Assembly (NCBI GenBank): GCA_020721585.1
Contig: DYMK01000011.1
Coordinates: 1-64,000 of the forward strand
Length of the DNA: 64,000 bases
Origin: Sulfuricurvum sp.
GTDB lineage: Bacteria; Campylobacterota; Campylobacteria; Campylobacterales; Sulfurimonadaceae
Reading direction: 5' to 3'
The notes beneath the pieces were generated by a model that worked only from the letters and a program-made list of their open reading frames with translations, searched no databases and was not told the origin of the DNA. The translations under genes and the position numbers were made by a program. Positions 54,176 to 55,104 of the stretch are shown here, one piece after another (positions within the stretch are counted from its first letter, which is position 1; the number at the start of each line of letters is the position of its first letter).

Positions 54176-54306
54176 AAACCACCCCGCCTTACAGGCACCC
54201 CTCCAAAGGAGGGGAATGGAGAGAAAAATTCCCCTCCTTTGGAGGGGTGGCAGACGAAGTCTGGCGGGGTGGTCGCATCCTCTCAAAAACGAAGTCTGGC
54301 GGGGTG
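54176..54306. repeat. Nested palindrome cluster upstream of DUF559 gene
   Basis: Layered structure. Outer 11-bp arms: ACCACCCCGCC (54176-54186) against 54261-54271. Two inner hairpins with CCCCTCC/GGAGGGG arms and a 3-nt loop: 54196-54212 (loop AAA) and 54229-54245 (loop TTT), each in a 24-nt block inverted relative to the other (22 of 24 match). A 20-bp direct repeat, ACGAAGTCTGGCGGGGTGGT, at 54252-54271 and 54287-54306. The composition is GC-rich compared with the flanks. It ends 26 nt before the DUF559 ATG, and that reading frame is open back through part of the repeats. Confidence 0.85.
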
Positions 54307-54332
54307 GTTATATCCTTAAAAGAGAAACAACC

Positions 54333-54677
54333 ATGCGTGATACACAAAAATATTTTTCGCTTCCTTACAACGCTGCTTTAAAAGAACGAGCAAAAGCTTT
54401 GCGAAAAGCTGGTAATTTAGCCGAAGTGCTACTTTGGCAACAACTCAAAAAAAAACAGTTGTTGGGTTTGGATTTTGATCGACAAAAGATTATTGGGAAT
54501 TACATTGTCGATTTTTATTGTGCTTCTGAAAATTTGGTCATAGAAGTTGATGGTAGCTCTCACGAGAGTAAAGAGAAATATGATGCGCAACGGGATAGAT
54601 TTTTGGAAGGATTTAACCTAAAAGTAATTCATCTTAGCGACAAAGATGTCAAAACAAACCTAGATAAAAGCAATTAA
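54333..54677 (+). CDS. DUF559 endonuclease-domain protein
   Basis: 114 aa. The DUF559 (Vsr-like PD-(D/E)xK) core has NAALKERAKALRKAG, AEVLLWQQLKKK, LGLDFDRQK, IGNYIVDFYCA (Asp) and LVIEVDGSSHE (Glu-x-Asp), followed by KYDAQRDRFLEGF. Most key residues are present, so it may be active as a nuclease. ATG 54333 has AGAG upstream. The open frame continues to 54216 through the palindromes, encoding a repeat-derived extension that I leave out. The role of DUF559 proteins is not established. Confidence 0.85.
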   Translation: MRDTQKYFSLPYNAALKERAKALRKAGNLAEVLLWQQLKKKQLLGLDFDRQKIIGNYIVDFYCASENLVIEVDGSSHESKEKYDAQRDRFLEGFNLKVIHLSDKDVKTNLDKSN

Positions 54678-54721: not shown

Positions 54722-54895
54722 ATGAACTCATTAAAATTTGAATGGGATTTCGCTAAAGCATCCTCCAATATTAAAAAACATGGGATCTCTTTTGAAGAAG
54801 CGCGAACTGTTTTTGACGATGATTTTGCCCGTTTACTTCACGACCCTGATCATTCTGAGGGGGAAGAACGCCAATACAAGGAATTTTTACCATGA
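54722..54895 (+). pseudogene. brnT: BrnT toxin with in-frame internal deletion
   Basis: A 57-codon open frame. Residues 1-50 match the BrnT start (LKFEWDFAKASSNIKKHGISFEEA, then VFDDDFARLLHDPDHSEGEER). The usual C-terminal half, with beta strands and RIISARKA, is missing, and the frame goes straight to QYKEFLP and the stop. Family members are about 90 aa, so roughly 35 residues are lost, probably by recombination between similar short codon runs. The frame and the ATGA overlap with brnA are preserved, so antitoxin coupling survives. The product should lack RNase activity. Confidence 0.8.
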
Positions 54896-55104
54896 GAAAA
54901 GAATACGACTTTTCACAATCTATCCAAAACCCTTATGCCAAAAAAGTTAAAAAGCAAATTTCCCTTAACATTGAGGTAGAGACCATCGATTATTTTAAAG
55001 CGCTATCCATCAAAATGGGATTGCCCTACCAAACACTCATAAATTCTTACCTCACCGATTGTGCAATGCGCCATGTTGAACCACACTTACAATGGACAAG
55101 CTAA
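54892..55104 (+). CDS. brnA: BrnA-family antitoxin (second copy)
   Basis: 70 aa. The N-terminus EYDFSQSIQNPYAKKVKKQISL and the C-terminal MGLPYQTLINSYLTDCA match the BrnA/CopG antitoxin family; an RHH fold is expected. It is coupled to the truncated brnT by ATGA. It differs strongly from the copy at 6209, so this is a separate acquisition. It ends 1 nt before the polA stop on the opposite strand. Confidence 0.85.
   Translation: MRKEYDFSQSIQNPYAKKVKKQISLNIEVETIDYFKALSIKMGLPYQTLINSYLTDCAMRHVEPHLQWTS

Follow-up and report, generated by a model that had tools for sequence, protein, structure and literature searches.

A DUF559 nuclease gene and its inverted triplex-type hairpins in Sulfuricurvum as the probable remains of a mobile unit

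A cluster of nested palindromes lying directly before a nuclease gene raises the question of whether hairpins and nuclease belong together and, if so, whether they form a mobile unit. Such a locus is found in Sulfuricurvum sp. (contig DYMK01000011.1) within the window, by which we mean the whole stretch of 64,000 nucleotides that was analysed. The initial annotation of this DNA suggested a mobile repeat/endonuclease pair analogous to REP sequences and their RAYT transposases, or else hairpins serving as a regulatory target of the nuclease. Based on comparisons with relatives in many phyla, the cluster and the gene probably represent what is left of a single mobile unit, in which a PD-(D/E)XK nuclease sits between inverted hairpin elements and would spread via its own ends.

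The hairpin cluster and the nuclease gene of the window

The features of the locus are as follows:

54178..54217, minus strand: R element, the double-hairpin/triplex element in inverted orientation (ACCACCCCGCC..CACCCCTCC-AAA-GGAGGGGAAT); the same element occurs in 77/80 relatives
54228..54273, plus strand: F element, from sequence comparison and triplex scan
54231-54247: hairpin 1 of the F element, CCCCTCC-TTT-GGAGGGG
54251-54263: hairpin 2 of the F element, CAGAC-GAA-GTCTG
54266-54272: third-strand tract of the F element, GGGGTGG
54289..54308, plus strand: 3′ half of a second, partial F, whose 20 nt match 54254-54273 exactly
54333..54677, plus strand: DUF559 (YcjD-like, PD-(D/E)XK/Vsr-like) predicted nuclease gene, 114 aa, Pfam PF04480
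54722..54895, plus strand: truncated brnT toxin gene, a neighbour outside the unit, covering Pfam positions 1-43 of 77
54892..55104, plus strand: brnA-like antitoxin gene, a neighbour outside the unit, scoring just under the Pfam cut-off

The arms, inverted CCCCTCC hairpins and direct repeat described in the initial annotation are all present. The outer 11-nt arms (54178-54188 and 54263-54273) are 100% complementary, the two mutually inverted CCCCTCC hairpins (54196-54217 and 54228-54249) match over 22 nt at 100%, and the direct repeat starting at 54254 and 54289 has 20 identical nt inside a 28-nt match of 89%, its last identical base being 54308 and the DUF559 ATG lying at 54333. The DUF559 frame is indeed open back into the repeat, where an alternative ATG is found at 54216. 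What had been overlooked is the G-rich third strand, the inverted copy downstream of the gene in relatives and the apparent decay of the unit in the window.

The consensus of the F element, derived from 192 exact-core elements at 72 loci, is TTCCCCTCC-N3-GGAGGGGTG-(second hairpin)-GGGGTGGT, and the ends of type-A elements are AATTCCCC.. and ..GGGGTGGT. The stem of the second hairpin is variable, with 21 stem sequences among these 192 elements, and 43 of the 54 distinct second hairpins with a triloop carry GNA on the F strand. C-GNA-G forms an unusually stable single-stranded DNA mini-hairpin, and therefore the conservation of this triloop suggests that it is kept by selection for single-strand DNA structure. 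Read antiparallel, the GGGGTGG tract mirrors the purine arm GGAGGGG, with G opposite G and T opposite A, and so fits an intrastrand triplex plan, in which a pyrimidine/purine stem-loop precedes a G-rich mirror tract that could fold back on it to provide the third strand. This tract changes with the stem across DUF559 clades, for example AAAAGGGG with GGGGTTTT in L170. In two non-A sets, 38% and 46% of purine arms have a perfect 8/8 mirror in their own tail; the corresponding values are 3-5% with shuffled arms and 8-12% with the tails of loci that have other arms. Just 8 type-A arms were testable in this way. A scan for triplex motifs (a Y/R hairpin, then a mirror third strand) that used no fixed sequence recovered the DUF559-flanking elements; for the E. 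coli motifs known as TMECO, actual triplex formation has been reported in vitro (PMC4666352).

The gene itself is the only DUF559 gene of its genome (PF04480, E=6.7e-30, 103.6 bits vs a gathering cut-off of 20.6). Ten residues are invariant in an alignment of 39 DUF559 sequences including that of the window (R24, E31, W35, Q51, F61, E71, D73, G74, H77 and D84), so that the nuclease motif E-x-D-G..H, Q51 and D84 are all kept, and the protein is a predicted nuclease of the family of E. coli YcjD. In an AlphaFold model (pLDDT 86), PDB 3hrl was the top match of DUF559 in both sequence and structure (Foldseek E 2.6e-6), and the best fold match outside the family was the catalytic domain of the homing endonuclease I-Bth0305I (3r3p_B, E=7.1e-4, TM 0.55/0.63), while Vsr was matched more weakly. 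DUF559 has no strand-transfer domain. In the searched literature, YcjD-like/DUF559 predicted nucleases, the same protein family as the window gene (PMC1189080; PDB 3hrl), are described with no function, target or repeat association, and among the papers naming DUF559, PF04480 or ycjD none was found to connect the family with repeats.

In the window, the C-terminus of DUF559 is shorter than in relatives and ends sooner than that of Thiovulum in the alignment, the triplex scan detected no hairpin element downstream of the gene, and the neighbouring brnT is truncated. Because of these features the unit is best read as decaying, with its right end lost, and it is probably inactive. The broken brnTA pair mentioned in the initial annotation was likewise borne out as far as brnT is concerned; the truncated gene directly precedes brnA and lies beside the DUF559 remnant, and a past rearrangement may have damaged it. 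The gloB-polA order is not kept in relatives within the genus, and they offer no orthologous empty site that would mark the insertion boundaries.

A search for further copies, which the initial annotation had suggested, returned none with the window cluster across the rest of the 2.29-Mb genome, and CCCCTCC..GGAGGGG palindromes occur just twice in these 2.29 Mb, both times in the cluster. A triplex scan using no fixed sequence found 2 motifs at the cluster and none in the window more than 800 nt from the DUF559 gene. The proximity is not due to chance, because the sole cluster and palindromes of the genome adjoin its sole DUF559 gene.

Association of hairpins and DUF559 across genomes

Eighty DUF559 loci with 61-87% identity, from about 16 phyla, were obtained by scanning public genomes. 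The double-hairpin element was present within 500 nt upstream in 77 of them, usually with an inverted copy downstream, and the three exceptions were two loci at contig ends (L047 and L048) and one with a broken frame (L092). Partial tandem copies similar to that of the window were also seen in the relative locus L037. Inverted arms span DUF559 in 45/66 loci vs 2/412 shifted windows and, in an independent sample of Pseudomonadota, in 19/30 vs 2/118. Triplex motifs, again searched with no fixed sequence, lay within 400 nt of DUF559 in 76/80, 28/30 and 23/26 loci of three sets, at a density of 2.6-3.4 per kb close to DUF559, as compared with 0.05-0.10 per kb at distances above 800 nt (~27-60x), and 530 kb of shuffled DNA contained 0 motifs. 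Upstream of DUF559, the closest element has one orientation in 91 cases and the other in 18; downstream, the closest element has the opposite orientation in 78 cases vs 16, and the layout of the unit is F-gene-R. A minority of DUF559 genes have no downstream copy and a few have neither copy.

Of the 58 type-A cores in 14 fully listed genomes, 30 are no more than 500 nt away from DUF559, for which the uniform expectation is 0.03, and the 3 of 298 Campylobacterota genomes with a strong DUF559 (E<1e-29) all have palindromes beside it. The initial annotation had named repeats distributed independently of DUF559, or DUF559 genes mostly without the repeat, as patterns that would speak against its idea; the idea came through this test strongly. 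Copies of CTCTCCC..GGGAGAG number 0-337 (median 19) in 30 Pseudomonadota genomes with DUF559 and 0-14 (median 0) in 20 genomes without it (p=6e-8), the two groups not being matched for relatedness. Many similar hairpins are also found in some genomes that have no DUF559 match, such as G245 (51 copies) and G392 (14), where the nuclease was lost or another cause applies.

Some further observations concern related repeats. In Campylobacterota, the genomes G245, G149 and G083 (L149-L156) have a related hairpin type (CCCCTCCCTTGCGGAGGGG and GGGGGTGGG) in 12-51 copies with no full DUF559 match, representing orphan repeat families or a lost nuclease; these high-copy hairpins were rejected as copies of the window element, being of a related but different type, and were left uncounted. 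In G135, the same type flanks a DUF559 from a different clade that lies within an open frame of 1307 aa (L147, 2644-2958), and DUF559 units with their repeats are tandemly duplicated in G342 (L169 and L176).

Hairpin type tracks DUF559 lineage rather than host genome. Distant DUF559 genes (27-52% identity) have different hairpins of the same plan, a single genome with several different DUF559 genes has a different hairpin for each, and one DUF559 clade has the same hairpin across phyla. Protein and hairpin distances are correlated (Mantel r=0.67, p=0.001, n=97), also with type A removed (r=0.33, p=0.001, n=40). Phyla are mixed in the DUF559 tree, in which the window gene groups with those of Thiovulum (Campylobacterota) and the pseudomonadotan Thiomargarita (support 100/98), and DUF559 units have spread horizontally across phyla.

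Probable mobility of the unit and competing explanations

Three kinds of evidence suggest that the unit is mobile, namely deletion derivatives in Laspinema, in-frame units whose relatives are empty, and the presence or absence of a motif pair in E. coli. In the cyanobacterium Laspinema, 8 of the 10 dispersed loci examined contain F, the leader, the DUF559 ORF cut down to its first 30-36 nt, and then R; at L144 the retained part of the ORF is shorter. These dispersed copies are internal-deletion derivatives of the DUF559 unit, amplified in this genome without the nuclease.

Repeat-derived N-terminal extensions, which the initial annotation had mentioned for other bacteria, are real; the unit lies in frame within a longer ORF in about 33 of 80 type-A loci. 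According to Pfam, in-frame units separate HSDR_N from the HsdR motor and one HsdS recognition domain from another; they are also located within Type_ISP_C (which is split into two stretches), next to N6_N4_Mtase, and fused to a radical-SAM protein reading as LipA. Mod genes thus hold such units as well as hsdR and hsdS. In 13 hsdR genes from three phyla (L079, L089, L091, L093, L094, L097, L099-L101, L104, L105, L108 and L111), the unit separates the nuclease domain from the motor domain, apparently at one and the same site (AVNRAVES..|..VVWHTQGSGKS). The only valS found in G348 has a unit inserted in frame, and in G359 one lies at the same loop. This loop is short in 17 relatives, of which two have small insertions of other kinds there. 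The valS of one relative (L192) carries at this loop a small in-frame insertion that is different and bears a palindrome, which suggests that the loop is insertion-tolerant.

In E. coli, ycjD of MG1655 is a DUF559 gene; its region is present in 3334/5426 complete genomes, and one published study reports that ycjD takes the place of the eef operon (PMC12817139). A degenerate TM-like hairpin overlaps the ycjD stop, and TMECO no. 9, as listed in PMC4666352, lies about 170 nt past it. In the hrpB-mrcB intergenic region, MG1655 and O157 both have a TM pair, which is internally deleted in one strain and absent from other E. coli strains (L246-L249). The accessible text of this 2015 study (PMC4666352) states that no mobility gene was found near TMECO, and it names neither DUF559 nor a nuclease. 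No clean target-site duplication was seen at valS or at E. coli hrpB-mrcB, where the empty sites differ beyond the element.

The mechanism that we favour is the following. The DUF559 nuclease would recognise its own hairpin/triplex ends, probably on single-stranded or extruded DNA, and cut there; repair or copying after the cut would then bring the unit, and also the derivatives that lack the nuclease, to new sites. Insertions in genes would persist where the frame stays open through the unit. The cutting or moving of the hairpins by DUF559 itself is what we infer. A broader proposal, to which we give about even chances, is that such units constitute a class of transposase-less mobile elements with a Vsr/homing-type nuclease and hairpin/triplex ends, and that the triplex-motif repeats found in E. 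coli and many other bacteria derive from this class.

It is unlikely that the hairpins are moved by another agent, such as a transposase in trans, replication slippage or recombination, with DUF559 as cargo or a hitch-hiking co-resident. No strand-transfer activity is known for DUF559, and TM-like repeats occur in genomes without a DUF559 match; but DUF559 apart, the units have no gene in common, each DUF559 clade has its own matching hairpin even within one genome, and the deletion derivatives descend from the DUF559 unit itself. Even less probable is that the hairpins act on DUF559 as regulators or terminators, or serve as self-control sites of a host-beneficial repair or defence nuclease, with the unit spreading because it is useful and often in company with restriction-modification genes. 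The hairpins do adjoin the gene, the fold is Vsr-like and many units lie in or beside restriction-modification genes, whereas up to hundreds of element copies are located far from any DUF559, unrelated genes including valS are interrupted in frame, and nuclease-less copies are amplified in Laspinema. Since DUF559-less copies are dispersed and units stand in frame inside unrelated genes, the regulatory-target alternative of the initial annotation fits poorly, and a pure regulatory role was rejected as the main explanation. The slimmest chance is left to homing only, by which DUF559 would cut empty alleles (hsdR, mod and valS loops), repair would copy the unit in and dispersed hairpins would be by-products: the best fold match outside the family, the apparently shared hsdR site in three phyla and the shared valS loop in two genomes are in its favour, but overall the units have entered very diverse sites, and both units between genes and dispersed copies of the non-autonomous kind are common.

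Comparison with known systems

The free-standing homing endonucleases with an EDxHD/Vsr fold (I-Bth0305I, 3r3p) share with DUF559 a related catalytic fold and a recurrent site, here the apparent one in hsdR; they differ in that the DUF559 unit is bounded by inverted hairpins and has dispersed nuclease-less derivatives, and no intron or intein was noticed around DUF559 units by inspection. The Rickettsia palindromic elements and the CGTC-REPs (PMC3733652), the latter with no known transposase, are also palindromes read in frame inside protein genes, although their hairpin sequence is unlike that of the DUF559-flanking elements. The intrastrand triplex motifs TM/TMECO have the same plan of stem and third strand, and no. 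9 adjoins ycjD (PMC4666352); in the accessible literature that was searched, no link between TM and DUF559 was found.

This pairing brings together a widespread uncharacterised nuclease family, which includes ycjD, and widespread orphan triplex-motif repeats, so that the origin of the repeats and the role of DUF559 become one question, and it may explain where the widespread triplex-forming repeats of bacteria come from. DNA cassettes in frame inside essential and restriction enzymes also bear on protein annotation. To our knowledge, no class of mobile elements pairs a PD-(D/E)XK nuclease with its own triplex-type ends, and if DUF559 proved to be just cargo, the unit would belong with elements of the REP/MITE kind.

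A close parallel is provided by REP/REPIN sequences with RAYT (TnpA_REP, Y1 HUH), in which an enzyme gene is likewise flanked by inverted hairpins whose type matches the enzyme lineage, and non-autonomous copies are dispersed, often as inverted pairs and also within genes. The REP/RAYT analogy of the initial annotation holds for this layout, with flanking inverted hairpins and dispersed copies found in relatives and the upstream side only in the window, but not for the enzyme or the tag. RAYT is an HUH/Y1 transposase and the DUF559 enzyme a PD-(D/E)XK Vsr-like protein, and REP has a GTAG tag where the DUF559 repeats carry a mirror third strand. Between the repeats there is no HUH/Y1 tyrosine transposase gene, the sole gene being that of PF04480, and GTAG is absent from the hairpin foot in the type-A ends; membership of RAYT was rejected on both grounds. 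The best reading of these sequences is a RAYT/REPIN-like mobile unit that would be built on a Vsr/homing-type nuclease in place of a transposase.
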